Below the pieces are notes generated by a model. The model was not told where the DNA came from, did not search any database, and was given only the letters and a program-made list of their open reading frames with translations. A program made the position numbers and the translations under genes. Shown here in pieces: positions 1,260 through 62,487 of a stretch of 64,000 nucleotides of DNA (position 1 is its first letter; each line of letters opens with the position of its first letter). The stretch is from Nonlabens ulvanivorans. GTDB taxonomy: Bacteria; Bacteroidota; Bacteroidia; Flavobacteriales; Flavobacteriaceae. The DNA lies in NCBI RefSeq assembly GCF_000732625.1, contig NZ_JPJI01000032.1:930001-994000 (forward strand), read 5' to 3'.

Positions 1260-2624
1260 TTATAAACTTAAGGGATTGTATCCCAGATATTCTATTTCGC
1301 TTTCGCGAAAGCGTATTCCATAATCTTCCAGCTCTTTTAAAATAGGCTCGTAAATAGGCGCTGTAATAGGTATTTGTACTCCAGGTGAGGTGATCTCGCC
1401 ATTTAAGATTTTAAGAGCGGCAATTGCAACAGGTAGACCAACTGTTTTTGCCATGGCAGTTTGCATATTGCCATCACCTAAACACACCATCGTACTGTCT
1501 ATCTGCTTCTTTTCACCATTAATCTCATATCCAAATTTATGATACATAACAATCATATCTTTTTCTCCATCTTGAAGAGTCCATGAGTCTTCTAAGATTT
1601 TTTGTAAAATCTGTGCAGGTGTAGCTTCTTTTAATGCTACCATCTTAGTAGCATTAAATAAATCTAATTCTACTAATTTATTCCACATGATATCGTCTTG
1701 ATCAATTTTTAGAACGTGACGCATTTTAAGTTCTGCAGAGTCTGTAGGTGAATATGGTAAAAAGCTATTCACAAAATCCCGGTAACTCATATTTTCAGAA
1801 TCTTCAATGGTGTAAGTATCGTCAGTCATTCCTAATTGTACGAACATATTCCAAGCCTTGCTAAAACCTACACGACGCATGGTGCCTCGATACAATGTGA
1901 GGATGTCATCGAGTCCGTATACCGAACGGTATTTTAAACTATTACGATTAGCATAAGCTTCAAATCTACCATAGACATCTACATCTAGAAATTCTGTTCT
2001 TCTAAATAACTTATGGTATGGTATGTATTTGTATTGACCTTCCTGAATGAATTTTGCCGCACCACCTTGACCTGCGGTAACAACATTACGAGGATTCCAA
2101 GTGAACTTATAATTCCACAAGTTATCGTCATTTTCAGGGGCAACTAATCCACCGGTAAAGGACTCAAATAATAAGATTTTACCACCTTGTGATCTTATTC
2201 TATCTAGCACTTGCATGGCGCTCATATGGTCGATACCAGGATCAACACCTATCTCGTTCATAAAGACAAGATTTTTTTCTATAGCACTTTCATTTAAGGC
2301 TTGCATTTCAGGACTTACATAACTGGCGGTAACCATTGATTTTCCATAAGCAATGCAATCTCTCGCCACTTCAATGTGAAACCTTGCAGGCAACATTGAT
2401 ATAACTATCGATGCTTTTTTTATATAAGATTTACGCTGGTCTTCATTAAAAATATCTAGTTGAACAGCTTCAACATTTTTATGATTTTGGCCTAGTAATT
2501 TTGCTTGATCTATATTTTTATCTGCTATCAAGAGCTTTAAATTCTCTTCTTCTGATTTTTTTAAAAGGTAATCGACTAGCACTCCAGTTGATTTACCTGC
2601 TCCTATAATCAGTATATCACGCAT
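1260..2624 (-). CDS. Saccharopine dehydrogenase family protein
   Basis: 454 residues, usual length for the saccharopine dehydrogenase/reductase family. An N-terminal Rossmann fold starts with GAGKSTG (8-14) and an acidic residue (Asp35) ends the second strand. The C-terminal catalytic domain has GVDPGIDHM (126-134) and WNYKFTWNPRNVV (170-182), typical of this family. The expected reaction is NAD(P)-dependent interconversion of saccharopine in lysine degradation. A glutaryl-CoA dehydrogenase at 23.2-24.4 kb would act later in such a route. Near the C terminus the sequence RFRESE (438-443) is encoded by a copy of the dispersed palindrome. Divergent from the DUF423 gene (53-bp gap). Confidence 0.85.
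   Translation of the reverse strand: MRDILIIGAGKSTGVLVDYLLKKSEEENLKLLIADKNIDQAKLLGQNHKNVEAVQLDIFNEDQRKSYIKKASIVISMLPARFHIEVARDCIAYGKSMVTASYVSPEMQALNESAIEKNLVFMNEIGVDPGIDHMSAMQVLDRIRSQGGKILLFESFTGGLVAPENDDNLWNYKFTWNPRNVVTAGQGGAAKFIQEGQYKYIPYHKLFRRTEFLDVDVYGRFEAYANRNSLKYRSVYGLDDILTLYRGTMRRVGFSKAWNMFVQLGMTDDTYTIEDSENMSYRDFVNSFLPYSPTDSAELKMRHVLKIDQDDIMWNKLVELDLFNATKMVALKEATPAQILQKILEDSWTLQDGEKDMIVMYHKFGYEINGEKKQIDSTMVCLGDGNMQTAMAKTVGLPVAIAALKILNGEITSPGVQIPITAPIYEPILKELEDYGIRFRESEIEYLGYNPLSL
1298..1313. repeat. Dispersed palindrome, exact 16-bp copy (in coding sequence)
   Basis: CGCTTTCGCGAAAGCG, inside the 3' end of the saccharopine dehydrogenase gene, read as RFRES. Confidence 0.95.
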
Positions 2625-2677
2625 ATCTGTTGTAATTTTGAGGCAATTTAAAAGACTTCTTATAAATAGATATACAA

Positions 2678-3073: not shown

Positions 3074-3093
3074 GGAGAGAGATATATGATTTC

Positions 3094-3134: not shown

Positions 3135-4745
3135 ATGGGTTCAAATACCTTAGTTACGAAAACGATTTCGTTAGAAGAATGGGGAATTAAAAATTCCAAA
3201 ATTAATTATCAACTACCACCAGCAGAGCTGCAAAAGATTAGTGTTGCTAGCTATGATGGTAAAGAAACCGCAAACGGCACACTCGCTGTTAACACCGGTG
3301 AATTTACTGGTAGATCGCCGATGGACCGCTTCATTGTAAGAGATGAGGTTACCGAGGACAAAGTCTGGTGGGGTAATATCAATATACCTTTTGAATCGGA
3401 TAAATTTGATGCATTACTTCATAAAGTGACCTCTTACCTGGATGGTAAAGATGTTTTTGTGAGAGATGCGTATGCCTGTGCACATCAAGATTATAGACTC
3501 AATATTAGAGTCATTAATGAGTATCCGTGGTCTAACATGTTTGCTTATAATATGTTCTTAAGGCCAGAGAATGAAGAGTTAGAGAATTTCTCTCCAGAAT
3601 GGACTGTTATAAATGCACCGGGATTTATGGCAGTACCTGATCAAGACGGTACAAGACAGCATAACTTTGCTATTCTTAATTTTTCTAGAAAGATTGCTTT
3701 AATAGGTGGAACCGGTTATACTGGCGAAATCAAAAAAGGAATTTTTAGTGCGCTCAACTTTATTTTGCCTGTGTATAAAAATACTTTGCCTATGCACTGT
3801 AGCGCAAACGTAGGAAAAGATGGAAGTACAGCCATCTTTTTTGGTTTAAGTGGTACAGGTAAAACAACTCTTTCTACAGATCCAGATCGAGCATTGATTG
3901 GTGATGATGAGCATGGCTGGACTTCAAATAACGATGTTTTTAATTTTGAAGGTGGTTGTTATGCAAAGGTGATAAATCTGGATGCAGAAGGTGAGCCAGA
4001 AATTTACAATGCTATTAAGCCTGGTGCGATTTTAGAAAATGTTATCTTGAACGCTGATAAAACAGTAGATTTTAAGGATACATCTATTACCCAAAATACG
4101 AGAGTAAGTTATCCTATCTTCCATATCGACAATATTAAGAAACCTTCTGTAGGAGATAATCCTAAGAATATTTTCTTCTTAACTGCAGATGCTTTTGGAG
4201 TATTGCCTCCTATATCTAAATTAACTCCTGGTCAAGCAGCATATCATTTCATTAGTGGTTATACTGCAAAAGTAGCAGGAACAGAAGCTGGTATTACAGA
4301 GCCAGTTCCTAGCTTCTCTGCTTGTTTTGGAGCCCCATTTATGCCTCTTCACCCTACAAAGTATGCTGAGATGTTGAGTGCGAAAATGAAAGAAACAGGT
4401 GTTAATGTATGGTTAGTAAATACAGGATGGACCGGTGGACCATATGGTGTTGGTTCGCGAATGAAGTTGAAATATACTCGAGCGATGATTACAGCAGCAA
4501 TGGACGGTAGTCTAGAGGCTGCAAATAAGGACAATTATCACGTGCATTCTGTTTTTGGTGTTGCACAACCACGTACTTGTCCAAATGTCCCTACAGATGT
4601 TTTAAGTCCTAGAGCAACATGGAAAAATGATGAAGGTTATTATGAAACCGCATCAAAGTTGACTAATGCATTTAGAGATAACTTCAAACAATTTGAAGAT
4701 TATGCTTCTTCAGAAATAATGGCAGGAGCACCACTGAAGTATTAA
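3135..4745 (+). CDS. pckA: Phosphoenolpyruvate carboxykinase (ATP)
   Basis: 536 residues, normal length. It converts oxaloacetate and ATP to PEP, CO2 and ADP, the first committed step of gluconeogenesis, in the cytoplasm. Visible signatures are the substrate loop TGRSPMDRF (58-66), the kinase-1a P-loop GLSGTGKT (237-244) and the kinase-2 motif GDDEHGW (256-262). Start is the ATG at 3135, just after an AAAAGGA stretch. The gene is monocistronic: own promoter box upstream and a strong hairpin terminator downstream. Confidence 0.97.
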   Translation: MGSNTLVTKTISLEEWGIKNSKINYQLPPAELQKISVASYDGKETANGTLAVNTGEFTGRSPMDRFIVRDEVTEDKVWWGNINIPFESDKFDALLHKVTSYLDGKDVFVRDAYACAHQDYRLNIRVINEYPWSNMFAYNMFLRPENEELENFSPEWTVINAPGFMAVPDQDGTRQHNFAILNFSRKIALIGGTGYTGEIKKGIFSALNFILPVYKNTLPMHCSANVGKDGSTAIFFGLSGTGKTTLSTDPDRALIGDDEHGWTSNNDVFNFEGGCYAKVINLDAEGEPEIYNAIKPGAILENVILNADKTVDFKDTSITQNTRVSYPIFHIDNIKKPSVGDNPKNIFFLTADAFGVLPPISKLTPGQAAYHFISGYTAKVAGTEAGITEPVPSFSACFGAPFMPLHPTKYAEMLSAKMKETGVNVWLVNTGWTGGPYGVGSRMKLKYTRAMITAAMDGSLEAANKDNYHVHSVFGVAQPRTCPNVPTDVLSPRATWKNDEGYYETASKLTNAFRDNFKQFEDYASSEIMAGAPLKY

Positions 4746-4805: not shown

Positions 4806-4833
4806 ACATTACGCTTTCGCGAAAGCGTAATGT
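4806..4833. repeat. Dispersed palindrome, extended to a 28-bp perfect dyad
   Basis: The 16-bp core CGCTTTCGCGAAAGCG (4812-4827) is flanked by ACATTA and TAATGT, so the symmetry reaches 28 bp with no mismatch. Its last base is the first base of the hemD stop codon (minus strand), and it sits right after the pckA terminator. Confidence 0.95.
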
Positions 4834-5579
4834 TATTTATCTTCTTTAATGTAATTTTCAATAGCCATAGTCATTGAAGGAGACTCAGGTGTAGGAGCTT
4901 GTATATCGATACGTAGTCCCATGTCCTCGGCAGTTTTCATAGTAGTATTTCCAAAAACAGCGATTCGTGTTTTATCCTGAGTAAATTCAGGAAAATTCTT
5001 AAACAATGATTCTATTCCACTAGGACTGAAGAATACTAAAATATCGTATTTCACGTCTGCTAGATCAGAAAGATCACTTATTACGGTACGGAAAAAAGTT
5101 CCCGAGGTCCACACTACTCCTAAAGCATCCATTTGTTCTGGTACTTCATCTTGAAGTTTGTCAGAACTTGGGATTAAAAACTTTTCGTTTTTATGCTTTT
5201 TAATAAGAGGAACTAGTTCTTTGAAGGTACGTTTACCAACATAAATTTTACGCTTGCGGTACACTACATATTTTTGCAAATAATAAGCAACAGCTTCACT
5301 TTGGCAGAAGTATTTCAACGAGTCTGGAATTTTATATCTCATTTCTTCGGCAACTCTGAAGAAATGGTCGACACTATTACGGCTAGTTAAAACAATGGCA
5401 GTGAACTTGCTAATGTCTATTTTTTGCTCGCGTACTTCTTTAGAAGGAACACCTTCTACATGTATAAACGAACGGAAATCTATCTTAACCTTAGTACGAT
5501 CTACTAAAGTCTGATAGGGTGAATTTTCCATTTTAGGTTCAGGTTGGGAAACTAAAATTGTCTTCACTTTCATAGGCAT
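4833..5579 (-). CDS. hemD: Uroporphyrinogen-III synthase
   Basis: 248 residues, HemD fold: two alpha/beta domains with little sequence conservation. The family features visible are VLTSRNSVDHFF (64-75) and a late FFSPSGIESLF segment. It cyclises hydroxymethylbilane to uroporphyrinogen III in haem synthesis. The start region reads MPMKVKTILVSQPEP; the second Met (5573) is a possible alternative since homologues usually begin MKVKTILVSQPEP. It lies 11 bp after the DUF4271 gene on the same strand, a pairing common in flavobacteria. Confidence 0.9.
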   Translation of the reverse strand: MPMKVKTILVSQPEPKMENSPYQTLVDRTKVKIDFRSFIHVEGVPSKEVREQKIDISKFTAIVLTSRNSVDHFFRVAEEMRYKIPDSLKYFCQSEAVAYYLQKYVVYRKRKIYVGKRTFKELVPLIKKHKNEKFLIPSSDKLQDEVPEQMDALGVVWTSGTFFRTVISDLSDLADVKYDILVFFSPSGIESLFKNFPEFTQDKTRIAVFGNTTMKTAEDMGLRIDIQAPTPESPSMTMAIENYIKEDK

Positions 5580-8808: not shown

Positions 8809-9810
8809 TTATTTTAAAGTTTTTAAGTAGTAATCGCTTACTCGCTGGATGCTTTTATCAATTGGTGTGTAGTTAAAATCTACATGCTCTTTAATCTTTA
8901 AACCATCATACTTACTGTGAGAGGTTAATGATTGAACGGTAGCACGTTCTAGGCCTCTATTAAAACCTATCCAGTGGCCTATCTTCATTGTTGCAGATAT
9001 GAGATATAATATCCATTTAGGGACCATGATCTTAGGTGCTTTCTTTTTTAAGCTATGACTTATTTTACTTAAAATTTCTTTATAATGAATCGATGATTGA
9101 ACGATAATAAAACGTTCATTTACGATATCAGAATTCATAAGTTGTATCATCGCGTTGGTAACATCTCTTACGTCTACAAAACCACTGGATCCATCGGTAT
9201 AAAAAGGTTGTTTCCTATAAGTTTGAGAGAATAATTTTCCAGATCCACTTTCCCAATTTCCTTCACCTATAATAACACCAGGATTAACTATAATAACATT
9301 CATCCCTTCTTGAGTAGCACGCCATACTTCCATCTCGCCACCATATTTTGAAATGGCATAGTTGCTGTTTTTTGCGTCTAGATTAAAAAAGTCTTCTTCA
9401 TTTATAGCTCGTTGTCCTACTGGTTCGCCCAGCGTTGCTATACTACTTACATAGCATAGTTTCTCTATTTGATGAGCTTGCGCGGTATTGATAACATTAG
9501 AAGTTCCTGTTACATTAGCCTTCTTCATTTGCCAGAAAGGAGCGCCATCTACAATAGCTGCGCAGTGATAAACCTGTGTAATGCCATCCATGGCTTCTTC
9601 TAGGCTTGGTATTTCTAGAATATCACCTTGTACCCATTCAATCTCGTCAACTAACTGATCTTTGTTAGCACCATAAGAATTAAATATAGCACGTGTTTTA
9701 TCGATACTCTTAAGATCTCGATATATCGCTCTTGTTGGAGTTCCGCTTTCGCAAAAGCGATATAACAAATGTCCACCTACTAGTCCAGTGCCGCCAGTTA
9801 CTAAAATCAT
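8809..9810 (-). CDS. NAD-dependent epimerase/dehydratase family protein (extended SDR)
   Basis: 333 residues from the ATG at 9810; an upstream in-frame ATG (9825) would add only MYFYH, and the family normally begins MILVTGGTG. The NAD motif TGGTGLVG lies within the first 12 residues; the catalytic YxxxK is YAISK. The closest types are dihydroflavonol-reductase-like or sterol-dehydrogenase-like SDRs; the substrate is unknown. A one-mismatch copy of the dispersed palindrome encodes RFCES near the N terminus. It is convergent with the DUF4296 gene. Confidence 0.85.
   Translation of the reverse strand: MILVTGGTGLVGGHLLYRFCESGTPTRAIYRDLKSIDKTRAIFNSYGANKDQLVDEIEWVQGDILEIPSLEEAMDGITQVYHCAAIVDGAPFWQMKKANVTGTSNVINTAQAHQIEKLCYVSSIATLGEPVGQRAINEEDFFNLDAKNSNYAISKYGGEMEVWRATQEGMNVIIVNPGVIIGEGNWESGSGKLFSQTYRKQPFYTDGSSGFVDVRDVTNAMIQLMNSDIVNERFIIVQSSIHYKEILSKISHSLKKKAPKIMVPKWILYLISATMKIGHWIGFNRGLERATVQSLTSHSKYDGLKIKEHVDFNYTPIDKSIQRVSDYYLKTLK
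9744..9759. repeat. Dispersed palindrome, one-mismatch copy (in coding sequence)
   Basis: CGCTTTCGCAAAAGCG: one G-to-A change from the 16-bp consensus; read as RFCES in the SDR gene. Confidence 0.85.
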
Positions 9811-9866
9811 ATGGTAAAAGTACATAAACCGCGCTTTAAATACTCTTAAAAGTGCGGTAAAGCCTA

Positions 9867-11194: not shown

Positions 11195-12166
11195 TTATTC
11201 CACAGCCATCAAATTGCAGCCTCTTATATCAGACTGATCAAACCTTCCTAGAACTTGAAAAGTGCCATCGGGTAATACTTTACCTAGATCTTGTGTAGCA
11301 ATAAAGGAACAGGAATTATAGTTAGCTAGATCTATTATGTTAAGTCCACCAGTTTTTGAGGATTTTAATAAACTCAATGGATCATTAGTGTCTCGAGTAG
11401 TCACTTTCATCCATGGTGGCGTGGTAAAATTAATACCATCGCTAGCATAGGCTTGTGATAATAGCTCTGTCATGCCGTATTCACTTTGTATGCTTGCTTT
11501 CGCGAAAGCGGACTTTAAAATATCATGCAGCTCCTGTTTAATGATTTCCTTACGCATGCCTTTCATTCCACCAGTCTCAATGATGATGGTTTGAGATAAT
11601 TCTTGAGGGAACTTTTCTGCTAGTTGAAGTAGCGCAAAGGTGACTCCTATAAGAATGACCTTTTGATTATTTTGCTGTAAGGTTTTAAGCACTTGTGCAA
11701 GTTCATCTATATTATTAAGATAGAAGCCGCTAGATGGATGTTTACTCTTTTCTATCCAGCGTTGTGCCATATAAACCAAAGAAGATCCACTGCGCTCTAA
11801 GTAATGCGGTAGTAAGGCGAGTACAGCATAATCTTCATGATTACCATAAGTGATGTCAAAGCTTTTATCCAAACTTAAATCATATACACCAGTATCAGTG
11901 ATATGATGTTTAGATGTGGTCATGCCTGTGGTTCCGCTACTGGTAAAAGTAATTTCTGACTTATTAGTATTACTAACAATATGGTGGCTCTTGAAAAACG
12001 AAATTGGAAGATATGGGATTTCATCTACCGATTGTGGTGTCGTTCTACCTATTAAATGACAGTATTTATGATATACAGCGTTGTGATCTAATTGATGTTT
12101 AAAGATGGCTAGTGCCAATTCTTCAAAATTAGATGATGATGTTATATTAAAAACTGACTGAAACAA
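11195..12166 (-). CDS. LuxE-like acyl-activating enzyme (acyl-protein synthetase/PaaK relative)
   Basis: 323 residues. The adenylate-binding loop is SSGTTG (76-81) and YGMTELLSQAY (230-240) is the second conserved adenylation motif. This matches LuxE acyl-protein synthetase and relatives, which activate a carboxylic acid with ATP. It stands alone with no luciferase or reductase gene, so its acyl substrate is unknown. The start is a TTG at 12166; no in-frame ATG lies nearby and a -7 box (12187-12194) is well placed for it. Residues 219-225 (SAFAKAS) are encoded by an exact copy of the dispersed palindrome. Confidence 0.78.
   Translation of the reverse strand: MFQSVFNITSSSNFEELALAIFKHQLDHNAVYHKYCHLIGRTTPQSVDEIPYLPISFFKSHHIVSNTNKSEITFTSSGTTGMTTSKHHITDTGVYDLSLDKSFDITYGNHEDYAVLALLPHYLERSGSSLVYMAQRWIEKSKHPSSGFYLNNIDELAQVLKTLQQNNQKVILIGVTFALLQLAEKFPQELSQTIIIETGGMKGMRKEIIKQELHDILKSAFAKASIQSEYGMTELLSQAYASDGINFTTPPWMKVTTRDTNDPLSLLKSSKTGGLNIIDLANYNSCSFIATQDLGKVLPDGTFQVLGRFDQSDIRGCNLMAVE
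11496..11509. repeat. Dispersed palindrome, exact 14-bp core (in coding sequence)
   Basis: GCTTTCGCGAAAGC in the LuxE-like gene, read as AFAKA. Confidence 0.95.
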
Positions 12167-12251: not shown

Positions 12252-14168
12252 TTATTGAACGACTAACTTTCTAGTTTGTGAATTTCCATTTTGAGAAATC
12301 TTTACAATGTAAAGACCAGCATTTAATGAAGATACATTGATAGAGTTAGTTACTGCTTTTTGAGAAATAACTTGCTGTCCTAATGCAGAGTAAATAATGA
12401 CATCTACAGGATTACCATTCTCTACAGAGATATTGATTTCATTACCAGAAACTGGATTAGGGAATAATTTAAAGCTGTTTTTAGTAAACTGCTCATTTGA
12501 TAATGTAAAGTCGTTTACAGCACCTGGTGTGCCTAAGTCACCTGCGCCAAAAGTACTTGTTGCAAGTCCCCAGTTAACACCTAGATCATTGTCTGTCGCA
12601 TTATACTTTGATACTGCAAGTTCCATACTAGCGCCATTACCGTCAGGGAATGTAGCGCCGTTATCCCAAGATACTTCATCGATTACTGTTCCGCCGCACT
12701 GAATCGATAGTTCATCTAATCCATTTCCTAAGAAAGTAGAAGTTCCATCATAAACATAATCAGGTGTAATTCCACCGTTTAATGTTGTGTTTGCATTCGC
12801 TACAAAAACAGCATATCCATTTGCAGGAACTATGACAGATGTAACAATCGTAAAGTTTTCTCCAGAATTAGTAAGATCAACTATTTCATAACCTAACATA
12901 TCGATAGGTGCGCTTGTCGTATTGTAAACCTCAAAATACTCACCTTCATTATCCTGGGACGCATTTGGGTTTTGCATGATCTCTGTTAAAATAATATCAC
13001 CAGGATTTGCACATGTAACGTTTGCTAAACAAGCTGGGCTTGAAATATTACGAGATAAATTACAAGCGCTATTTGCTGGGTCACCTGTTACTGTAACTGT
13101 AAAGTCAACACCTTCAGTAACACCAGTAATCATAATTTGACCAGCTGCAACCGTTGATGGATTGTCTCCAGCAATAGTTCCATTTCCTGCCGTATCTATT
13201 GTATAAGTAGAAGTACCACCGCCGGTATAATCGATAGTTACATCATATAAATCTACACCAGATGTTGAAGTCTGACAAGTTTCAGTTATAGTCGCTAATT
13301 GTAAATCACATGGGAAAGAAACGTCAAAGCTAGTAGCGTCTGTAGCAAGTACGGTTGCGCCATCTAACATGTCAACTGTTACAGCATAAGCCATACCATC
13401 ACTTACTGCTACTGCAAAAGGCGATGTAGCATTCGCAGTTGCCGTTCCATTTACAGTTACCGTAAAAGTTCCACCTGCAGGTAAGTTAAGCGCTGTCCAT
13501 GTAACATCTACACTAGTTGTTCCTCCTTGTAGGCTACTACCATTTCCAGGAGCGGTAATGGTTACTGTAGGGTTAGTGTTAGGAGTTGAAGAGTAAGAGC
13601 CTGTTCCAATTATTGATTCAAATGTTGTAGATCCACACTGACCATCTAAAGTATTAGGAGTGCTTGTCACCCAATTTGCTTGATTAAAAGTAGCATCAGG
13701 ACCTGTACCATCTACTCTTTTTGCATAAGAATCTAAATATTCCCAAGTTTCTCCAGTTCCGTCTACTTGAGTTCCGTAAGTATCAATAACAGTCATTGTA
13801 GCGCTTTCAATAATACGTACAGCATCATCTCCATTGTTGTTTGCTGTTCCAGCTGCTTGATAGTCTGCAGCAACAATGCCAGGGAATTCGCTATTTAATA
13901 AAGCTTCAGTTCCTGAGTATACATAAACGAAAGAATTTGTTCGAGTTCCAAAAGGTGTCAAATCAAATGGAGTACCAAAAGCACCCCCATTTGCAGATTT
14001 CTCTAATGTAAACTGTGTGAAATCTACAGTTCCATTTGCATAAATTTCGATAAGTTTTGGTGTTCCACCTGTACAAGTACCATCAACTATAGAAGTGATT
14101 ATAGGTTGTTGTGCGAAAGAAATTGCTGCAACGAAGAACATTGCAACCGTAAAGTAAATTTGTTTCAT
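12252..14168 (-). CDS. Secreted lamin-tail-domain protein with T9SS sorting domain
   Basis: 638 residues from the ATG at 14168. The longest frame starts 27 bp earlier, but that ATG lies inside the -7 promoter box. Signal peptide MKQIYFTVAMFFVAAISFAQ; then a lamin-tail-like domain (IEIYANGTVDFTQFTLEK region), Ig-like beta domains (PTVTITAPGNGSSLQGG onward), a second lamin-tail domain (ILTEIMQNPNASQDNEGEYF onward) and a T9SS type A C-terminal domain (LFPNPVSGNEINIS to the end, GLYIVKI). It should be exported through the Sec and type IX systems to the cell surface or medium. Function unknown. Next to another T9SS cargo gene but probably transcribed separately. Confidence 0.88.
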   Translation of the reverse strand: MKQIYFTVAMFFVAAISFAQQPIITSIVDGTCTGGTPKLIEIYANGTVDFTQFTLEKSANGGAFGTPFDLTPFGTRTNSFVYVYSGTEALLNSEFPGIVAADYQAAGTANNNGDDAVRIIESATMTVIDTYGTQVDGTGETWEYLDSYAKRVDGTGPDATFNQANWVTSTPNTLDGQCGSTTFESIIGTGSYSSTPNTNPTVTITAPGNGSSLQGGTTSVDVTWTALNLPAGGTFTVTVNGTATANATSPFAVAVSDGMAYAVTVDMLDGATVLATDATSFDVSFPCDLQLATITETCQTSTSGVDLYDVTIDYTGGGTSTYTIDTAGNGTIAGDNPSTVAAGQIMITGVTEGVDFTVTVTGDPANSACNLSRNISSPACLANVTCANPGDIILTEIMQNPNASQDNEGEYFEVYNTTSAPIDMLGYEIVDLTNSGENFTIVTSVIVPANGYAVFVANANTTLNGGITPDYVYDGTSTFLGNGLDELSIQCGGTVIDEVSWDNGATFPDGNGASMELAVSKYNATDNDLGVNWGLATSTFGAGDLGTPGAVNDFTLSNEQFTKNSFKLFPNPVSGNEINISVENGNPVDVIIYSALGQQVISQKAVTNSINVSSLNAGLYIVKISQNGNSQTRKLVVQ

Positions 14169-14184
14169 CTCTGATTGTTTTTTG

Positions 14185-14192
14185 CAAATATA
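14185..14192 (-). promoter_or_regulatory. -7 promoter box of the lamin-tail gene
   Basis: TATATTTG on the minus strand, 17 bp before the ATG at 14168; it overlaps and so rules out the upstream ATG. Confidence 0.7.
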
Positions 14193-14291
14193 CATTATTC
14201 ATAATCCTGCAGTCTTGACTTTAAGGGATTTAATGTTAACATAACATCAGATGTAATAAATTAATCAACCATTTAACACAACGGATTTTGT

Positions 14292-16992: not shown

Positions 16993-17008
16993 CGCTTTCG
17001 CGAAAGCG
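16993..17008. repeat. Dispersed palindrome, exact 16-bp copy (intergenic)
   Basis: CGCTTTCGCGAAAGCG in the 223-bp divergent gap between the M36 peptidase and the response regulator. Confidence 0.95.
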
Positions 17009-21615: not shown

Positions 21616-21631
21616 CGCTTTCGCGAAAGCG
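21616..21631. repeat. Dispersed palindrome, exact 16-bp copy (intergenic)
   Basis: CGCTTTCGCGAAAGCG followed by TAATTC, between the ATL gene and apbC. Confidence 0.95.
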
Positions 21632-24453: not shown

Positions 24454-25182
24454 TTACATTTTTAAATAGAAATCTCTGACTAGGTTAATATAGTCTGTAG
24501 TGTAAAGGTGTCTACTTATTTCAATAGTGAGTAGGTCTGGTTTTATCTCGCTTTCGCAAAAGCGTAATTCTAATAAGCTTCTCTTGATTGGGCTAGATTC
24601 TGTCCCTTTAACATGTGTGATTCGAGCTGGAAAGAGTTTGTAATGTGCCGCAATACCTAAGAAATGACGCTCTCTGTCGATAGGTATAACACATGCAAAA
24701 ATCCCATCCTCATCTAGTAACTTATAAACTCCATAGATGAGTTCCTCAAAGGGTAGGGCATCATCAAAACGTGCTTGCTCTCGATTTTTTTTAATATCGG
24801 TGTCTGTTGTAATATTACTAGAGTTAAAAAATGGTGGATTGCTTATGATTAAATCGTAAGTCTCATCTATTTCTTCAAAAAACTCTTGAAACGAAGCATG
24901 AAAACAGAACAATCGATCACCCCATGGGCTGTTTTCAAAGTTAGTAGCGGCTTGCTCAAAAGCGTCTTCATCTAGTTCTACAGCTTCTATCTGTGCGCTA
25001 TGAAAACGTTGTGCCATCATTAAAGAAATAACACCAGTTCCAGCTCCTATGTCTAATATACGATCGGGATCTGGAGTGCTGTCTTCGCTGGCCCATGCTC
25101 CTAAAAGTACGCCATCTGTACCTATTTTTTGAGCACAACGATCTTGAGCTACTTCAAATTCTTTGAATTTAAAAATGCTCAT
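24454..25182 (-). CDS. tRNA1(Val) (adenine37-N6)-methyltransferase-like protein
   Basis: 242 residues, SAM-dependent methyltransferase of the TrmN6/YfiC group. SAM motif DIGAGTG (44-50) and the N6-adenine catalytic motif NPPF (115-118). The start MSIFKFKEFEVAQDRCAQKIGTDG is typical. It follows rimM after 6 bp on the same strand, so rpsP-rimM-methyltransferase form one operon. A one-mismatch palindrome encodes RFCESE in the C-terminal part. Confidence 0.88.
   Translation of the reverse strand: MSIFKFKEFEVAQDRCAQKIGTDGVLLGAWASEDSTPDPDRILDIGAGTGVISLMMAQRFHSAQIEAVELDEDAFEQAATNFENSPWGDRLFCFHASFQEFFEEIDETYDLIISNPPFFNSSNITTDTDIKKNREQARFDDALPFEELIYGVYKLLDEDGIFACVIPIDRERHFLGIAAHYKLFPARITHVKGTESSPIKRSLLELRFCESEIKPDLLTIEISRHLYTTDYINLVRDFYLKM
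24549..24564. repeat. Dispersed palindrome, one-mismatch copy (in coding sequence)
   Basis: CGCTTTCGCAAAAGCG followed by TAATTC, in the tRNA methyltransferase gene; same G-to-A change as the copy at 9744. Confidence 0.85.
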
Positions 25183-27221: not shown

Positions 27222-27662
27222 TTAATTTTTTAGATAGATTTTTTTACCAGAATAATCTATAATAGCTTTAGATTTTATTAAAAAGTCTGCACCAAGTAAG
27301 CCGTTAATGCTACGCATTCCTTCGGCTTTTAAAGCCTGATTAATAAAACTCATATCCATGGTTAGTAGACTGCAATCGTTATCAATCCATTCCCCTAATT
27401 GCATAATGTTGTTATGTGCGATTTGTGGAATTAAGGATCCGCTTGCGGTACCTATTTCTTGATTCATTTTTTCAGATTGCAATTGATATCTTTCTGATAA
27501 ATCTTGATTTAAGCAAGTTGCACTGGCGCCAGTATCTATTATAAAACGTCCTGTATGTCCGTTAATAGATGCTTTGGTTATAATATGGCCACTTTTTTCA
27601 GATAGTCGGATAGTGTGTGATAAGTATCCACGACTTTCTAGTGTTTTTTTAAGTGAAAACAT
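27222..27662 (-). CDS. Retropepsin-like aspartic protease domain protein
   Basis: 146 residues from the ATG at 27662 (MFSLKKTLES). A longer frame starts at 27713, but its extra residues include AFAKA from the dispersed palindrome and make no signal peptide. The active-site motif IIDTGASATCLN is that of single-domain retropepsin-like proteases, which work as dimers; GLLGADFLI is the second hallmark. No export signal, so probably cytoplasmic. Target unknown. Confidence 0.78.
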   Translation of the reverse strand: MFSLKKTLESRGYLSHTIRLSEKSGHIITKASINGHTGRFIIDTGASATCLNQDLSERYQLQSEKMNQEIGTASGSLIPQIAHNNIMQLGEWIDNDCSLLTMDMSFINQALKAEGMRSINGLLGADFLIKSKAIIDYSGKKIYLKN

Positions 27663-27689
27663 GAGTTGAGTTTGTGGTAAATATAAATA

Positions 27690-27705
27690 CGCTTTCGCGA
27701 AAGCG
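27690..27705. repeat. Dispersed palindrome, exact copy between divergent genes
   Basis: CGCTTTCGCGAAAGCG (symmetry extends to 20 bp, 27688-27707), midway between the protease and tatD starts. Confidence 0.95.
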
Positions 27706-27722
27706 TACTTCAAACAAATCTT

Positions 27723-34981: not shown

Positions 34982-36439
34982 TTAAATTTCCTTGCGTAAG
35001 CGTGCGACAGGAATGTCTAATTGCTCTCTATATTTTGCAACAGTACGCCTTGCTATAGGATATCCCTTTTCTTTAAGCAGTTCTGCTAGTTTTTGATCGG
35101 TCAATGGCTTTCTCTTACTTTCTTCACCTATAACGGTTTCTAGTATTTTTTTAATTTCTCTAGTAGATACTTCTTCACCATCAGAATTGGTCATGGATTC
35201 AGAAAAGAATTCTTTAATCAATTTAGTACCGTACGGTGTGTCTACATATTTAGAATTTGCTACTCGTGACACGGTTGACACATCCATTCCTATTTCGTCT
35301 GCAATATCTTTAAGAATCATCGGTCTTAAATTACGTTCATCACCTGTTAAGAAATATTCTTTCTGATAATACATAATAGAGGACATAGTCATAAAAAGTG
35401 TTTCCTGACGTTGTTTAATAGCCTCAATGAACCATTTTGCGCCATCTAACTTTTGTTTAATGAACATAACGGCATCCTTTTGGGATTTACTTTTTTCTTT
35501 AGCCTCTTTGTAACCTTTTAACATGTTAGAGTAATCTCTAGAGACATGCAATTCTGGCGCGTTACGACCATTCAAAGTAAGTTCTAATTCACCATCTTTA
35601 ATACGAATTGTAAAATCAGGAACTACTTGTTCCACCATTCTGGTGCTACCACCAGCATAGGCACTACCAGGTTTAGGGTTCAAGTGTTCTATTTCTTCTA
35701 TAGCATCACGCAGCTCATCTTCATCAATATGGTATTTTTCTAGTATTTTTTTATAATGCTTTTTACTAAATGCGTCAAATGATTCACCTACTAACTTCAT
35801 CGCTAGCTCAGTGCTTTCATTATTACGCTTTCGCGAAAGCTGAATTAATAAACACTCTTGTAAATCACGAGCTCCTACACCAGCAGGATCTAGCTGTTGT
35901 ACCACTTTTAGAACTTGTTCAACTTCTAAGACATCTGTGTAGATGTTCATGGTAAAAGCGAGGTCGTCTGCGATGTCTTCCATGGATCTACGGATGTATC
36001 CACTATTATCTATGCTACCTACTAAAAATTGAGCTATTCCATAGTGTTGCTCGCTTAATCTTCTTGTATTTAATTGATCAGTTAAAGATTGTGTAAATGA
36101 TGTCCCAGAGGCATATGGAATACTTTTCTCATCGTCATCTGCACTGTAATTATTTGCTTGAGTTCTGTATTCTGGTATATCATCATCACTTAGGTATTCA
36201 TCGACGTTGATATCTGCTTCAATAGTGTCGTTCTCGTCCCCATATTCATCTTGATTAGAGAACTCATCATAATCGTCATCTAGACTGTCTTTACTATCAT
36301 CTAGGGCAGGATTCTCTTCTAACTCTTGTTTAACACGTTGTTCAAATGCCTGTGTAGGCAATTGAATCAACTTCATCAACTGGATTTGTTGAGGAGAAAG
36401 CTTTTGTGATAGCTTGAAATTTAACGACTGTCTAAGCAT
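34982..36439 (-). CDS. rpoN: RNA polymerase sigma-54 factor
   Basis: 485 residues. Region I is Q/L-rich (MLRQSLNFKLSQKLSPQQIQ), region II is a strongly acidic stretch (about 45-90), then the core-binding region and C-terminal DNA-binding region ending with the RpoN box ARRTVAKYRE (463-472). It directs transcription from -24/-12 promoters and needs an AAA+ activator, none of which is encoded in this window. An exact copy of the palindrome encodes LSRKR at about residues 200-204. The membrane-protein gene follows. Confidence 0.95.
   Translation of the reverse strand: MLRQSLNFKLSQKLSPQQIQLMKLIQLPTQAFEQRVKQELEENPALDDSKDSLDDDYDEFSNQDEYGDENDTIEADINVDEYLSDDDIPEYRTQANNYSADDDEKSIPYASGTSFTQSLTDQLNTRRLSEQHYGIAQFLVGSIDNSGYIRRSMEDIADDLAFTMNIYTDVLEVEQVLKVVQQLDPAGVGARDLQECLLIQLSRKRNNESTELAMKLVGESFDAFSKKHYKKILEKYHIDEDELRDAIEEIEHLNPKPGSAYAGGSTRMVEQVVPDFTIRIKDGELELTLNGRNAPELHVSRDYSNMLKGYKEAKEKSKSQKDAVMFIKQKLDGAKWFIEAIKQRQETLFMTMSSIMYYQKEYFLTGDERNLRPMILKDIADEIGMDVSTVSRVANSKYVDTPYGTKLIKEFFSESMTNSDGEEVSTREIKKILETVIGEESKRKPLTDQKLAELLKEKGYPIARRTVAKYREQLDIPVARLRKEI
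35827..35840. repeat. Dispersed palindrome, exact 14-bp core (in rpoN)
   Basis: GCTTTCGCGAAAGC in rpoN, read as LSRKR. Confidence 0.95.
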
Positions 36440-38133: not shown

Positions 38134-38147
38134 GCTTACGCGAAAGC
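38134..38147. repeat. Dispersed palindrome, one-mismatch copy (intergenic)
   Basis: GCTTACGCGAAAGC (one T-to-A change), between the exporter stop and the asnS promoter. Confidence 0.75.
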
Positions 38148-40622: not shown

Positions 40623-42812
40623 TTAAATTTCTAGGTAGAAAGTAAATTTAAGCGCTAGGTTGTCAGAAAATTGAGGCAAATGATAGGCGCCGTATCGATA
40701 GGTCGCGCTAATTCCAAAACCGTAAATTAATTTATTTAATTCAAAACCAGATTCTGTATAACCTTTATTAAGTCTCTTAAAATCGATATTAAGGTGATCT
40801 CCTATATCATTGAAGTCGCCAATAGCATATCGCGAGGTAATTACTAATTCTGGGTTGAGCCAAGAAGTTATATGAAATGGCGCAAAATTATGACGCATTT
40901 GTAGCGTCGCGATACGATCAGAGAAAAACTCATTAAAGTACATGGTCTCAAAACTATTTCTGCCTGCTACAGAGAACCGTTGTAGTACTTCATCTTTAGT
41001 AGGTGCGTTGGGATAAGCATGAAATAAATGACTTAACGGTACGTCACCACTTGCATAATGACCTTCTAATAAAAATGCTGTTTTAGAACCGTTTATTCTA
41101 TTGATGGTATAAGACGCTTTACCAGAAAATTTTAAATAATTAAAGTCGCTGTCTAATAATCCTTGAATTCCCTTAGTGACTTGCCCACTTAAAATTGGAT
41201 ATCCTTTTGTTGTTTCTTGGTATCCTTTAGGTGTTTTCATGAATTCACTTTTTGGACTCCAACGGGCAGCAATTGTTGCCTCAGCTAACACATAGTTGAT
41301 AAATGGATTACCATCAGGTGCAAACACATAATTTGTGGTTTGTGAAATACGCTTTCGCGAAAGCGAGAACTCACTAATCACAGATGGAAATAAGCGTTGT
41401 TGTAATGATACACCGTATTCTTTGTATAGATAAAATGTAGGGATGTTAATGAGTCGTGGTTCAAATAGTGAGTAAACTCTAGCGTCAGTTAGAAATCTAG
41501 CTCCTGCAAACTCATTAATATCATCTGTTTTATAGGCGCTAATCCATGTGTTGTTTTCTTCACTAATTCTATAACCCAAAGTAATATTATGTTTAAATAC
41601 CTTGTCTTTGGTCCCAAAGGCGCCGTAGCCACTCACTCGCCATTTCTCAGAAAATTTATCGTTGGTCGTGCCACCTACACCTATTCTGAAGGCTTCGTAT
41701 TCATTAAATTTTATAAGGTATTTAAGGTCTATATCAAAGAAGCCTACCGGATAATAACCTACCTTAAACTTTTCTATGACTTCAAGTTTCCGTGTTACTT
41801 TCTCAGCCATTACGATGCTGTCTAGCTGCATGAAGTTAGCGAGTTCTTGAGTTGTAAAAGGTTCTTCATTGCGATATGTGTCCCAATAATTGAGTGGTTT
41901 ATCAATGGAGGTTTCTGGGATTTCAATGGAAACTCCTTTTTGACCAAAATTAACCTTGCGGTTAGTTTTAAAGTTTTTTTGATACCTTTTCATTATGAGA
42001 TAAAGCTCATCGGTCTCACTATCAATATCTTTTTGCTTGCGTGTTCCTACCTCAAAACGACCACCAAAAAGCTCAATTTCTTTAATGTTATTTGTCTTTT
42101 TTATGAATAACTCACTATAGGAACAATACCATAGATGGTGTAAGGAGTCATAAACAAAATCATGTTTGGTCTCAACTCTTAAGTCCTTATAGATATTATA
42201 ATGAGCTTTTGCAATGGCTTTAGTTTCTTGGTCTATATAAAGAGTGCCTGATAGGGTAGAGATAGATGTTTCAATAGGGGCAAATCCTATAATATTAATT
42301 TTTCTATTTTCAATTAAAGTGTCACCTATCGTTTCATAATTATAACTATTGAGCCCATTATTAGAAATAGGATTGATATAATGCTGGTCAAAAACAACAT
42401 AGGTGTCTTGATATAAATTGCGTGATTGAAAATTGATGTTATAGATAGGGTAAACCGGTGTTTCAAAACCAGGCATAAAAGCCGCCGTGATAAGTTCTTT
42501 AAAACCTTGGGATTGATCGTTTACGATGTCAGATGTTTTTTCAGATAAAAAAACTCCTGTTTTAAGTAATGTTCTCCTTAGTTCTGTCTTTTTATAGCCG
42601 GAACCCGTAATAGCTTCGGGATTACCTGCTATCTTAAGGTTTTCATAGCTATCATACTGAAAGGTGTTTAAAGTCTCTAAAGGGTTGTTTACATCCTTAT
42701 TCTCAATACAAGTTTTAATTATTTCTAATGCAGGCGTCACATCTTTTTGTGCTTGAACAACGATGCTTAAAAAAAGAAAAGAAATGAAAGGCCAGTACCT
42801 CATTGAGAACAT
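40623..42812 (-). CDS. DUF5686 family outer-membrane protein
   Basis: 729 residues with a signal peptide (MRYWPFISFLFLSIVVQAQ; the Met at codon 4 is an alternative start). The mid part resembles the DUF5686 region found after carboxypeptidase-regulatory domains in TonB-associated flavobacterial proteins; here that N-terminal domain is missing. The C-terminal half has alternating beta strands ending LKFTFYLEI, consistent with an outer-membrane barrel. A paralogue with the regulatory domain lies at 59962-62487. Residues coded by an exact palindrome read LSRKR in the barrel part. Confidence 0.8.
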   Translation of the reverse strand: MFSMRYWPFISFLFLSIVVQAQKDVTPALEIIKTCIENKDVNNPLETLNTFQYDSYENLKIAGNPEAITGSGYKKTELRRTLLKTGVFLSEKTSDIVNDQSQGFKELITAAFMPGFETPVYPIYNINFQSRNLYQDTYVVFDQHYINPISNNGLNSYNYETIGDTLIENRKINIIGFAPIETSISTLSGTLYIDQETKAIAKAHYNIYKDLRVETKHDFVYDSLHHLWYCSYSELFIKKTNNIKEIELFGGRFEVGTRKQKDIDSETDELYLIMKRYQKNFKTNRKVNFGQKGVSIEIPETSIDKPLNYWDTYRNEEPFTTQELANFMQLDSIVMAEKVTRKLEVIEKFKVGYYPVGFFDIDLKYLIKFNEYEAFRIGVGGTTNDKFSEKWRVSGYGAFGTKDKVFKHNITLGYRISEENNTWISAYKTDDINEFAGARFLTDARVYSLFEPRLINIPTFYLYKEYGVSLQQRLFPSVISEFSLSRKRISQTTNYVFAPDGNPFINYVLAEATIAARWSPKSEFMKTPKGYQETTKGYPILSGQVTKGIQGLLDSDFNYLKFSGKASYTINRINGSKTAFLLEGHYASGDVPLSHLFHAYPNAPTKDEVLQRFSVAGRNSFETMYFNEFFSDRIATLQMRHNFAPFHITSWLNPELVITSRYAIGDFNDIGDHLNIDFKRLNKGYTESGFELNKLIYGFGISATYRYGAYHLPQFSDNLALKFTFYLEI
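41350..41365. repeat. Dispersed palindrome, exact 16-bp copy (in coding sequence)
   Basis: CGCTTTCGCGAAAGCG in the DUF5686 gene, read as LSRKR. Confidence 0.95.
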
Positions 42813-45279: not shown

Positions 45280-45293
45280 GCTTTCGCGAAAGC
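45280..45293. repeat. Dispersed palindrome, exact 14-bp core (intergenic)
   Basis: GCTTTCGCGAAAGC between the tsf terminator and the lipoprotein promoter. Confidence 0.95.
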
Positions 45294-51592: not shown

Positions 51593-51608
51593 CGCTTTCG
51601 CGAAAGCG
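51593..51608. repeat. Dispersed palindrome, exact 16-bp copy (intergenic)
   Basis: CGCTTTCGCGAAAGCG between egtB and the preceding membrane-protein gene. Confidence 0.95.
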
Positions 51609-56879: not shown

Positions 56880-56893
56880 GCTTTCGCGAAAGC
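56880..56893. repeat. Dispersed palindrome, exact 14-bp core (between etfB and etfA)
   Basis: GCTTTCGCGAAAGC in the 91-bp gap inside the etfBA unit. Confidence 0.95.
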
Positions 56894-59847: not shown

Positions 59848-59961
59848 ATGAGAGTTTATGGATTAATGACTAGTTGAGATAAAAGGTTAACAACTATTTT
59901 TAAAATTTGTACCTCTGTTTTATTGCAAGAAACCTACTTTTGATTTTTACTTTCTTATAAT

Positions 59962-62487
59962 ATGATTGATTTTTTTAAATATGCTTTCGCGAAAGCGAGT
60001 TCATCACAATTGATGGTAATCATCATGTTTCTTGTGTCTAATACTATAACCGCACAAACTAAAGTAGGTGGTGTGGTCTATGATGAATTTGGTGATGGTG
60101 TGCCATTTGCAAATGTCTTTTTTCCTGGTTCTAGTGAAGGAACGATTACCAACGATAATGGTCGTTTCTACTTACAATCTGATAATAATTATGATACCAT
60201 TCAGATTTCATTCATAGGTTATGAAACACTTACATATACATTAGAATCCCGTGTTAATCTTGAGCTCAATTTAACCTTAAAGACTGAAGCCGCAGCACTA
60301 GATGCTGTTGTGATTTATACCGGTAAAACATCTAAAAAGAATAACCCAGCGCTTGACATCTTGCGTAAAGTATGGGAAAATCGTCGTAAAAATGGACTTT
60401 CTCAATTCAAGCAATATCAATATGATAAGTATGAAAAACTTGAGTTTGATATGAACACCATCGATAGTCAGATGGTAAATTCAAAGCTTTTCCGTGGTAT
60501 GGAATTCATATTTGACTATGCAGACACCAGCAATGTGACAGGTAAAACATATCTACCTATTTTCATTAATGAATCCTTATCTACCGTATATGGTGATAAT
60601 GAAATTAATAAAGAAAAGGAAAATATAAAGGCAAACAAGAACTCTGGATTTTCAAACAATCAAACGATTATAGCTTTTGTGAAGGACCTGTATGCAGACA
60701 TTGATGTGTATGAGAGATATCTTAAATTTTTTGATAAGAGTTTTACTAGTCCAGTAGGTAAAAGCGGTATTGACACTTATAATTATATTTTAAGAGATAC
60801 GGCTATTATTGATGGAGTTGAAGCATATAATATTATTTATTATCCACGTAGGAAAGGTGAGTTAACATTTAAAGGAGACTTTTGGGTAGCGGCAGATTCT
60901 TATGCGATTAAGGAGATCAACCTACAAGCAACAAAAAGTGCCAATGTTAACTGGGTGAAAGAAATTTATATCGAGCAAGAGTATGACGTTTTAAATGATA
61001 GCCTTTTCCTTATTACTAGAGATTATTTTATGAGCGATTTTGCGCTTAATAAAAAAGAAGAGTCGAAAGGTATGTACGGAAAGAGAACGACACTTTTTAA
61101 TAATTATCAATTTGATATTTCTAAAGATAAAGATTTTTATAAGCGCAGAGTCAATGATTATGATCCAGAAATCTATAATCGTGATGAGGCTTACTGGGAT
61201 GAAAATAGATTAGAAAAACTCAATAAAGATGAGAAACAAATCTATACCATGCTAGACACTCTTAAGACCAATAAGAAATTCAAGCGTTTATATAATATCG
61301 GGACCATTCTAGCGTCTGGATACTACGAAATTGACAATTTTGATATAGGGCCTGTTTTCAGTGTTTTTGGTTTTAATGACGTAGAAGGCTTAAGGTTGCG
61401 TGGTGGTGGAAGAACTTATTTTTCTGCAAATGATATGTGGAGATTAGAAGGCTATGGTGCTTATGGTTTTAGAGATAATCAGTTCAAATATGGTATCGCT
61501 GGTAAATGGTTAATGGATAAAAAAAGCAGATTAACCATTTCTGGAGGAAACCGTCGGGATATAGAACAATTGGGCGCTAGCTTGACTAATACAAATGATG
61601 TGTTAGGACGCAGTCTAGCATCAAGTGCCTTGATCACCTCGGGAAATAACTCCAGTTTATCCAGTATCAATTTATCTACACTAGCATTGAGCTTTGAGCC
61701 TAAGTATAATCTAGAATTTAGATTAGGTACCAGTTATCGTACCATTAAGAGTGGTAATCCTGATGTTTTTAGTCTAGATTATTTTGATGCAGATGCACCA
61801 GGTGGAATAGAGACAGAAACCAGACAAGCAGATGCTAGTCTGACAATGACCTATACACCAGGCCGTAAAACCTCTAACTATGGAGTAGATAGGACGATCA
61901 TCAATAGTGGTGAATATCCTATTCTTTTTGCTAGTTATACTCGAGGCTTTGAAGGTTTACTAGAAAGTGATTTTAACTTTGACAAAGTACAATTCTATTA
62001 CAGTCATCCCTTGCAGATAGGTGCTTTTGGTAGATTAACTGCTCGCGTAGAGGCTGGTAAGACGTTTGGAGAAGTGCCACTAGCATTACTAAATGTAGTT
62101 CCTGGTAACCAGACTTACTTCAATATTACAGGAGCATTTAATACCATGAATTTTTATGAATTTGTGACTGATGAATATGTGACACTTCACTTAAATCATA
62201 ATTTTAATGGTAGACTCTTTTCACGTGTTCCATATTTACGTGATTTGAATCTTAGAGAGCTTGTAGGAGTACGCGCTGTTTATGGAAAGATTAGTGATGA
62301 AAATGTAGCTTTAAATGCAAGCGGTTTAACTTATCTCGCTCCCGAAGATATTTACTGGGAATACAGCGCTGGAATAGGTAATATCTTCAAAGTATTCAGA
62401 CTAGACGTAAGTTTTAGAGGTGGATACAACTATTTACCTGACGCTCGATCTATGGCGATAACGGGTAGTTTTGGGTTTAGTTTCTAG
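59962..62487 (+). CDS. Carboxypeptidase-regulatory-like domain plus DUF5686 outer-membrane protein
   Basis: 841 residues. The signal peptide is MIDFFKYAFAKAS (n-region) then LMVIIMFLVSNTITAQ. A carboxypeptidase-D-regulatory-like beta sandwich (about 35-115, VVYDEFGDGVPFANVFF) is followed by a DUF5686 region and a strand-rich C-terminal half ending in GSFGFSF, consistent with an outer-membrane barrel. The n-region residues AFAKA are encoded by an exact copy of the dispersed palindrome. Paralogue of the protein at 40623-42812, which lacks the regulatory domain. Role unknown. Confidence 0.83.
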   Translation: MIDFFKYAFAKASSSQLMVIIMFLVSNTITAQTKVGGVVYDEFGDGVPFANVFFPGSSEGTITNDNGRFYLQSDNNYDTIQISFIGYETLTYTLESRVNLELNLTLKTEAAALDAVVIYTGKTSKKNNPALDILRKVWENRRKNGLSQFKQYQYDKYEKLEFDMNTIDSQMVNSKLFRGMEFIFDYADTSNVTGKTYLPIFINESLSTVYGDNEINKEKENIKANKNSGFSNNQTIIAFVKDLYADIDVYERYLKFFDKSFTSPVGKSGIDTYNYILRDTAIIDGVEAYNIIYYPRRKGELTFKGDFWVAADSYAIKEINLQATKSANVNWVKEIYIEQEYDVLNDSLFLITRDYFMSDFALNKKEESKGMYGKRTTLFNNYQFDISKDKDFYKRRVNDYDPEIYNRDEAYWDENRLEKLNKDEKQIYTMLDTLKTNKKFKRLYNIGTILASGYYEIDNFDIGPVFSVFGFNDVEGLRLRGGGRTYFSANDMWRLEGYGAYGFRDNQFKYGIAGKWLMDKKSRLTISGGNRRDIEQLGASLTNTNDVLGRSLASSALITSGNNSSLSSINLSTLALSFEPKYNLEFRLGTSYRTIKSGNPDVFSLDYFDADAPGGIETETRQADASLTMTYTPGRKTSNYGVDRTIINSGEYPILFASYTRGFEGLLESDFNFDKVQFYYSHPLQIGAFGRLTARVEAGKTFGEVPLALLNVVPGNQTYFNITGAFNTMNFYEFVTDEYVTLHLNHNFNGRLFSRVPYLRDLNLRELVGVRAVYGKISDENVALNASGLTYLAPEDIYWEYSAGIGNIFKVFRLDVSFRGGYNYLPDARSMAITGSFGFSF
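59983..59996. repeat. Dispersed palindrome, exact 14-bp core (in signal-peptide codons)
   Basis: GCTTTCGCGAAAGC at codons 8-12 of the DUF5686 gene, read as AFAKA. Confidence 0.95.

Follow-up and report, generated by a model that had tools for sequence, protein, structure and literature searches.

In bacteria that take up DNA preferentially by sequence, uptake bias is expected to drive the accumulation of uptake sequences with a relatively even distribution, and these sequences are found less often than elsewhere in new segments, in rRNA and in coding DNA under constraint (excerpts of PMC7811141; the other papers are likewise cited from excerpts). In Neisseria, the spacing of uptake sequences matches the length of conversion fragments (PMC2397512). 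Riemerella columbina, from the same wider group as the bacterium described here, prefers its own DNA in uptake competition, with no established signal named in the excerpt (PMC7965970). The transformation machinery of Riemerella includes proteins of unassigned function, and one transformation protein of R. anatipestifer contains the domain DUF5689 (PMC8459023). Here we describe a perfect palindrome, GCTTTCGCGAAAGC, that is repeated throughout a window of 64,000 nucleotides (the whole stretch of DNA analysed: contig 32, positions 930001-994000) within the 3.21-Mb genome of Nonlabens ulvanivorans (Flavobacteriaceae). Its copies form an even, conserved array that is most likely a genome-wide recognition signal, such as an uptake tag or a place where a chromosome protein binds.

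The genome contains 566 exact copies of the 14-bp palindrome (one per 5.7 kb) and none of the same letters in reversed order. Spacing statistics are based on positions 1-1654000 of contig 32 (1.654 Mb of the main contig, hereafter C32), which hold 306 exact copies as well as 55, 24 and 57 copies with one, two and three mismatches, respectively. Control palindromes with a shuffled half-site (up to 200) give means of 0, 0.1, 2.8 and 36 copies on C32 at zero to three mismatches, with maxima of 0, 2, 78 and 424. In the window there are 12 exact and three one-mismatch copies, compared to 0.13 expected at up to two mismatches in dinucleotide-preserving shuffles. A preliminary description, made from the letters of the window alone, had listed these 15 copies as a number far above chance, approximately half in genes and half between them. 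All are present, although several of the coordinates were off by one base, and by the gene calls made in this analysis eight lie inside genes and seven between genes. Neither of the two findings which that description had set against its own proposal was made: the genome count is far from chance level, and no repeat family with a long common flank was seen.

The copies are spread rather than clustered, and their evenness on C32 is extreme, beyond what had been claimed. Gaps have a mean of 5,379 bp and a coefficient of variation (CV) of 0.47; the smallest is 1,107 bp and the largest 18,027 bp, such that none of the 305 gaps is shorter than 1.1 kb. The Fano factor is 0.31. None of 10,000 simulations that placed as many sites in genes and in gaps as observed reached the observed CV, number of gaps below 1 kb, largest gap or Fano factor. 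The pair correlation, which is 0 below 1 kb, rises to 0.18 at 1-2 kb and to 0.42-0.46 at 2-3 kb, and is approximately 1 at greater distances. Every full 50-kb bin holds 7-12 copies except the first, which holds five. Evenness in other sampled genomes is weaker but present. The CV is 0.61 in G016 (480 kb; smallest gap 772 bp), 0.68 for the 61 listed sites of G004 contig C4 (4/60 gaps below 1 kb, 14.7 expected), 0.68 for the first 100 sites of G246 (0/99, 12.6 expected) and 0.72 for the first 50 sites of G262 (2/49, 9.9 expected).

The array is unbroken between the minimum (0.60 Mb) and maximum (1.51 Mb) of the cumulative GC skew on the contig. Of the skew around origin and terminus that had been suggested as a check, only a mild thinning from the skew minimum is seen (approximately 19-21 to 15-16 copies per 100 kb), with no exclusion or confinement. 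Because 117 of the 306 C32 copies are intergenic (189 are genic) in DNA that is 91% coding, intergenic DNA is enriched approximately four-fold. Convergent gaps are depleted, holding 16 of 116 intergenic copies. This depletion, the number of genic copies and the position of the T-rich side 5' of the core led us to reject an intrinsic terminator. The one 16S match found on C32 sits in a 13.2-kb gap without sites, and gyrA sits in the largest gap (18 kb).

The places of the sites are conserved. All 45 comparisons of the 15 window sites with three close relatives (84-90% nucleotide identity; counted by eye) could be aligned: 31 are exact, nine have one mismatch, four have two mismatches and one has a 2-bp deletion. 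Exact cores persist even where intergenic flanks have diverged, as at positions 16994 and 45280. More distant comparisons were made with eight congener stretches and, separately, with eight named congener loci, and places are shared between species, by close and distant congeners alike; the preliminary description had thought conservation between strains worth looking for. There is also turnover, since a site in the ORF at 19968 is present in 7/8 distant stretches but missing from the window. On a larger scale, 36% of 480 kb from G016 aligned to C32; 37 of the 306 C32 sites were alignable (269 were not), of which 33 are exact in G016, one has one mismatch and three have two mismatches, with no gaps. 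In the reverse direction, 34 of 85 G016 sites aligned to C32 (33 exact and one with two mismatches). C32 and G016 differ at 2.5% of core positions, as against 10-12% at distances of 8 bp to 4 kb. A broad dip in divergence around the sites, which would be a sign of recombination, was not seen in this comparison, between-species divergence being a weak test. Low divergence is also seen at positions more than 4 kb from any C32 site (0.026 of 5,675 bases); genes under strong constraint in these site-poor zones may be the reason.

Alignments with other genera bear on how the sites originate. The coding sites in the gene at 40623 and in rpoN are ungapped against other genera (27 and 29 other-genus rows printed). 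At the rpoN site the protein reads L-S-R-K, while other genera read L-K-R-K or similar at the same columns (29 rows printed); two Nonlabens loci, L031 and L032, have no rpoN site and read L-K-R-K there. Ungapped alignments and preserved cores together show that sites arise in place by substitution, not by insertion, and are then held by selection or drive.

On C32, the 14-bp core is preceded by C and followed by G in 88-89% of copies; the full 16-mer form accounts for 240/306 exact copies there and for 7/12 in the window. To approximately 25 bp from the centre, the 5' flank on each strand avoids C and is T/G-rich and the 3' flank is its mirror, forming a symmetric flank stretch of approximately 18 bp per strand; distant Nonlabens have the same pattern. 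The preliminary description had the 16-bp form often followed by TAATT or TACTT. This tendency exists, but the real flank is the symmetric one, G/T-rich on the 5' side and C-avoiding. Left-right pairing of the flanks does not exceed that given by base-frequency marginals, which rules out a hairpin stem reaching into the flanks, and we do not claim a helical or 18-bp periodicity, as amplitudes are broad and unlike between two sets. Folded on the half-site, the 55 one-mismatch copies fall at position 5 (33), 6 (14), 1 (four), 2 (two) and 3 (two), with none at 4 or 7; mutations are thus concentrated at two of seven positions. This anatomy suggests a site in double-stranded DNA that is recognised by a symmetric protein. 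The 3' half of the core, GCGAAAGC, is identical to a DNA mini-hairpin of known unusual stability; the mismatch pattern of the core follows no hairpin rule, as far as seen.

All 22 Nonlabens congeners carry 288-857 exact copies. Among 36 other genomes of the family and order, 35 have no copies and one, G033, has six. In a larger set of 397 Flavobacteriaceae genomes (four Nonlabens), 80 have at least one copy, and more than 19 copies are found only in the four Nonlabens, G246 (408) and G262 (857). Two of the 393 genomes outside Nonlabens, from other genera, therefore have dense arrays, and a restriction to Nonlabens is wrong. Intermediate numbers occur in G132 and G342 (16 and 19 copies) and in G107 (17), which could be islands, early accumulation or decay. 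In a phylum draw of 394 genomes, 22 have a copy and the N. ulvanivorans genome alone has more than six. The preliminary description had considered a genome-wide signal plausible, and the count, the even array, its presence in every congener and the two further genera agree with it. Among the kinds of signal that it had proposed, a protein-binding site for chromosome organisation and an uptake site are the two best readings.

The relationship of the array genera was addressed with a single gene, pckA, for which G246 is a long branch. PckA identity to the window's protein is 78% in G262 and 69% in G246, and 66-80% in genera without dense arrays (best copies). In a pckA tree of 22 rows the three array genera form no clade; the carriers need three changes, of which at least two are forced by well-supported branches. 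Both Nonlabens sites tested in the pckA block (7 kb in each of G262 and G246), at codon 438 of ORF 1260 and in the gap after pckA, are absent. The G262 block has exact copies elsewhere, one approximately 230 bp from the codon-438 place, and the G246 block has one one-mismatch and one two-mismatch copy, also elsewhere. Independent accumulation in three genera is the simpler reading, the alternative being a single old origin with losses and turnover. In 72 outgroup loci, no palindrome of at least 12 bases with three copies was found. An 11-mer scan of loci longer than 15 kb, of limited sensitivity as it missed Nonlabens L035, detected nothing but clustered repeats, in a small number of loci from Flavobacterium. 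The Flavobacterium-type loci L058, L068 and L087 contain several repeats like AAACCTGAAAC.

Sites are also found in mobile DNA. The six exact copies of G033 lie, together with three one-mismatch copies, on an island (G033:C18:62001-182000; L374-L379) with 37-41% G+C; stretches of three other contigs of this genome have 43-45% G+C and a fourth, short contig has 32%. Many of its blocks are 85-97% identical to Nonlabens G019 and up to 93% identical to G014, with weaker matches for other blocks. The corresponding islands in G019 and G014 are site-poor, with gaps of 33 and 53 kb. The G033 island also has a ParB_N match in a 616-aa frame.

We followed 12 virus contigs, selected among the motif matches listed on the basis of low G+C and extended flanks or multiple copies. 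They carry 1-8 copies each at up to one mismatch (for example, eight in 37 kb, six in 31 kb and six in 27 kb), but some are near-copies of each other and the set is uninformative on average phage density. Ten proteins from three of these contigs include an integrase and a tape-measure protein in the first and terminase, portal and head proteins in the second, while those of the third have no known function. Two Nonlabens phages, P12024S and P12024L, have no copies at up to two mismatches in 35.7 kb each, where host density predicts approximately six; they are close relatives with no integrase annotated, and their records annotate ERF-type and YqaJ-type recombination genes. Incoming DNA can apparently do without the site, and some resident DNA appears to have gained it. 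A set of four identically spaced copies (933, 10754 and 3991) is shared by G216:C1:311231-326922 and G271:C1:1156266-1171957, which belong to two genera, and the 933-bp pair is also present in G134, G143 and G157. Together, these copies probably reflect one mobile element carrying sites across Flavobacteriaceae.

We tentatively favour the reading that the palindrome is a genome-wide recognition signal of the DNA-uptake-sequence type, built by biased uptake and recombination. In DNA outside the cell or on its way in, a putative protein would recognise the core with the G/T-rich flank 5' of it on each strand, site-bearing DNA would be preferred in natural transformation, and recombination would copy site-bearing alleles into the population. 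If one site per fragment suffices, a new site within approximately 1-3 kb of an old one would gain nothing, and even spacing would follow. Sites would settle where they are least harmful, in intergenic gaps and permissive codons, and few would be found in rRNA, in genes under strong constraint or in DNA that has only recently arrived. The gaps around the 16S match and gyrA, the site-poor islands of G019 and G014 and the site-free P12024S and P12024L point that way. The genome sequences themselves show how abundant and even the sites are, the range over which they exclude each other, their conserved places, their origin by substitution, the constraint on individual positions of the core and the dense arrays of two further genera. 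The all-or-none mismatch spectrum on C32 (306 exact, 55 one-mismatch and 24 two-mismatch copies) also counts in favour of this reading. The reader would then be an uptake protein, and the upkeep would come from drive rather than from a benefit of each site. Genera that form no clade and differ in site positions fit an acquired or conserved reader rewriting each genome; arrays in other genera would be easy to explain if a biased receptor alone sufficed to drive sites into a genome. With greater reserve, we suggest that a transferable reader may have rewritten at least three flavobacterial genera independently (one site per 4-8 kb), along with resident phages and islands. It would then be the first DNA-uptake signal to be palindromic and also the first from Bacteroidota.

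The ComEC family is present in 22/22 Nonlabens searched and DUF5689 in 30/30 genomes. Several observations weigh against an uptake signal, however. ComEC is also present in 13/14, and DUF5689 in all, of the array-less relatives searched, so that neither discriminates. A search of the open-licence literature listed no report of Nonlabens transformation. Known uptake sequences, in the excerpted discussion, are not palindromes and are less even than compaction sites should be (PMC1939737), whereas the site described here is a palindrome and very even on C32. The lack of a broad divergence dip, weak as that test is, counts on the same side, as do the host-like site numbers of some phage contigs, a density that is biased because these contigs were picked by motif.

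The strongest rival, which we nevertheless regard as doubtful, is a site for a chromosome-organising protein: a homodimer at each palindrome would bend the T/A-rich flanks and bridge or bound loops of approximately 5 kb, and selection would keep one site per loop. Perfect symmetry, a signal that reaches approximately 25 bp from the centre and flanks without extra left-right pairing are as for a dimer. The extreme evenness on C32 (Fano factor of 0.31), the constraint limited to the core, the conserved positions and the sites in phage contigs and islands also suit such a protein, and the excerpt of PMC1939737 cites an older view in which even spacing is a sign of replication, repair or compaction. 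On the other hand, the island gaps of 33 and 53 kb are tolerated, and dense arrays occur in just three sampled genera, a narrow distribution that is odd for a basic chromosome function. A new binder would presumably gain little before its sites exist, and there is no chromosomal ParB paralogue of ordinary length. A Noc-like ParB was rejected on this account: 20/23 Nonlabens genomes, including the one described here, have exactly one ParB_N match, and the extra matches in G014, G018 and G019 lie in open frames of 602-616 aa. Sites of the Noc or matS type were also rejected, as the palindrome is neither kept out of nor confined to the terminus and is present all along C32.

A Chi-type recombination signal, to which a repair nuclease or recombinase would respond, is improbable. 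Such a signal would act in both directions because the site is a palindrome. The density of one copy per 5.7 kb is close to that of Chi in Escherichia coli, and the 5' flanks are G/T-rich on each strand, a composition that would be suitable for the loading of RecA. The absence of the site from P12024S and P12024L, with their own recombination genes annotated, also fits. However, known Chi sites are 5-8 nt long and are not palindromes, and the 14-bp core with its mirrored flanks has the look of a site bound as duplex DNA.

There is very little to recommend a DNA methylase target or a mismatch-repair bias, as argued for HIP1 of cyanobacteria. The palindrome is highly iterated and HIP1-like at first sight (excerpt of PMC4390886), and some half-site words are in excess outside the exact core (for example, CGCTTTCG, 31 versus 10.3 expected), an excess that perhaps comes from one-mismatch copies, which were left unmasked. 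This reading is contradicted by the inner hexamer TCGCGA, which shows no excess outside the core (137 seen, 138.7 expected), and 306/310 occurrences of CTTTCGCGAAAG are full 14-mers; the modification site proposed in the preliminary description falls with it. Its self-propagating palindrome, a mini-element inserted as such, is the least credible of all: many identical copies exist, but sites appear in place without insertion, as in the ungapped rpoN and 40623 alignments, no element is inserted or deleted at the 37 sites aligned with G016, the close-relative and G016 comparisons yielded no exact empty sites and only one core with a 2-bp deletion, and no two exact copies lie within 1.1 kb on C32.

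Eight window copies are genic. The exact copy at 1299..1312 is at codon 438 of ORF 1260-2624(-); it is exact in 2/3 close relatives, and the same codon has an exact copy in 8/8 distant stretches. A one-mismatch copy (G9 to A) at 9745..9758, codon 23 of ORF 8809-9825(-), is exact in 1/3 close relatives and has one mismatch in the other two, and is exact at the same codon in 7/8 distant stretches. The copy at 11496..11509, codon 220 of ORF 11195-12166(-), is exact in 3/3 close relatives, and one of eight distant congener stretches has a one-mismatch copy at this codon. A second one-mismatch copy (24550..24563) lies at codon 207 of ORF 24454-25182(-) and is exact in 1/3 close relatives; the exact copy at 27691..27704, at the 5' end of ORF 27222-27713(-), is exact in 2/3. 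The rpoN copy (35827..35840), at codon 200 of rpoN (34982-36439, minus strand), and that at 59983..59996, codon 8 of ORF 59962-62487(+), are both exact in 3/3. The copy at 41351..41364, codon 483 of ORF 40623-42812(-), is exact in 8/8 named congener loci even though protein identity is just 54-60% in six of them; by homology search, the closest named loci have 95% and 92% identity to this protein.

Seven copies are intergenic. The exact copy at 4813..4826 lies between pckA (3135-4745) and ORF 4833-5579(-). In close relatives it is exact in 1/3, with two mismatches in another and the 2-bp deletion in the last, and a site follows pckA in 6/8 distant stretches. The copy at 16994..17007, upstream of ORF 17116, has an exact core in 3/3 close relatives, as does that at 45280..45293, both with diverged flanks; 6/8 distant congener stretches have a site upstream of the same gene as the former. 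Exact copies at 21617..21630, 51594..51607 and 56880..56893 are exact in 2/3 (the third has one mismatch), 1/3 and 3/3 close relatives, respectively. The one-mismatch copy at 38134..38147, between asnS and the gene at 38158-40554, is exact in 0/3 close relatives, and 4/8 named congener loci (L031, L032, L033 and L037) have an exact copy in the same gap. Elsewhere in the window, two adjacent proteins with T9SS sorting domains, one of them an M36 metallopeptidase, are encoded at 12252-16892, and a search for RNA families returned only tRNA at gathering score.

The 14-mer and three 12-base parts of it are absent from the open-licence literature searched, and among the open-licence papers listed on Nonlabens or Flavobacteriaceae in connection with palindromes, uptake or transformation none concerns this site. 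Iterated genomic signals are already known; a long, palindromic and evenly spaced one in Bacteroidota is new as far as these searches go. The evenness on C32 directly reveals the distance within which an existing site renders a further one redundant, approximately 1-3 kb. If the palindrome is an uptake signal, it would provide a sequence code for natural transformation in Bacteroidota and a route to its receptor, and with the same motif in three genera, comparisons between them could test how uptake signals evolve. As a chromosome site, it would be the densest exact one known to us, and loop-scale organisation would become testable in this phylum.

Other dispersed palindromes differ from this one in several respects. 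The sites of Noc, SlmA and MatP are bound by dimers, but there are only tens of them and they either avoid the terminus or are restricted to it; the Nonlabens site has 566 copies, is found all along C32 and has no ordinary ParB paralogue to go with it. REP/RAYT palindromes are likewise dispersed, and the Nonlabens sites differ from them in lacking insertion or element flanks and in lying inside genes in 189/306 cases. HIP1 is also a highly iterated perfect palindrome, but it is an 8-mer linked to methylases for motifs inside it (PMC4390886), in contrast to a site of 14-16 bp with a minimum spacing and no inner-hexamer excess. The closest resemblance is to the uptake signal sequences (USS) of Pasteurellaceae and the DNA uptake sequences (DUS) of Neisseriaceae. 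We do not assign the palindrome to either family, and our claim, made by analogy, is limited to its working like one: it is a perfect palindrome with symmetric flanks and a 14-16 bp core, in Bacteroidota, and does not share the non-palindromic core of USS and DUS (PMC1939737). It occurs once per approximately 5.4 kb on C32 with no close pairs, compared to approximately 1 kb for USS/DUS, and has 55 one-mismatch to 306 exact copies, compared to 815 to 1,892 for the DUS of one strain (PMC2397512). For the scarcity of uptake sequences in new DNA and rRNA the signs here are mixed: the 16S match lies in a 13.2-kb gap, islands of two genomes are sparse and P12024S and P12024L have no copies, yet some phage contigs, picked by the motif, carry 5-8. 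In the excerpted accounts of USS and DUS, both nonetheless share with the Nonlabens site hundreds to thousands of near-identical short motifs, a bias toward permissive regions, relatively even spacing and a gradual origin by point mutation and recombination (PMC7811141, PMC2397512, PMC1939737).

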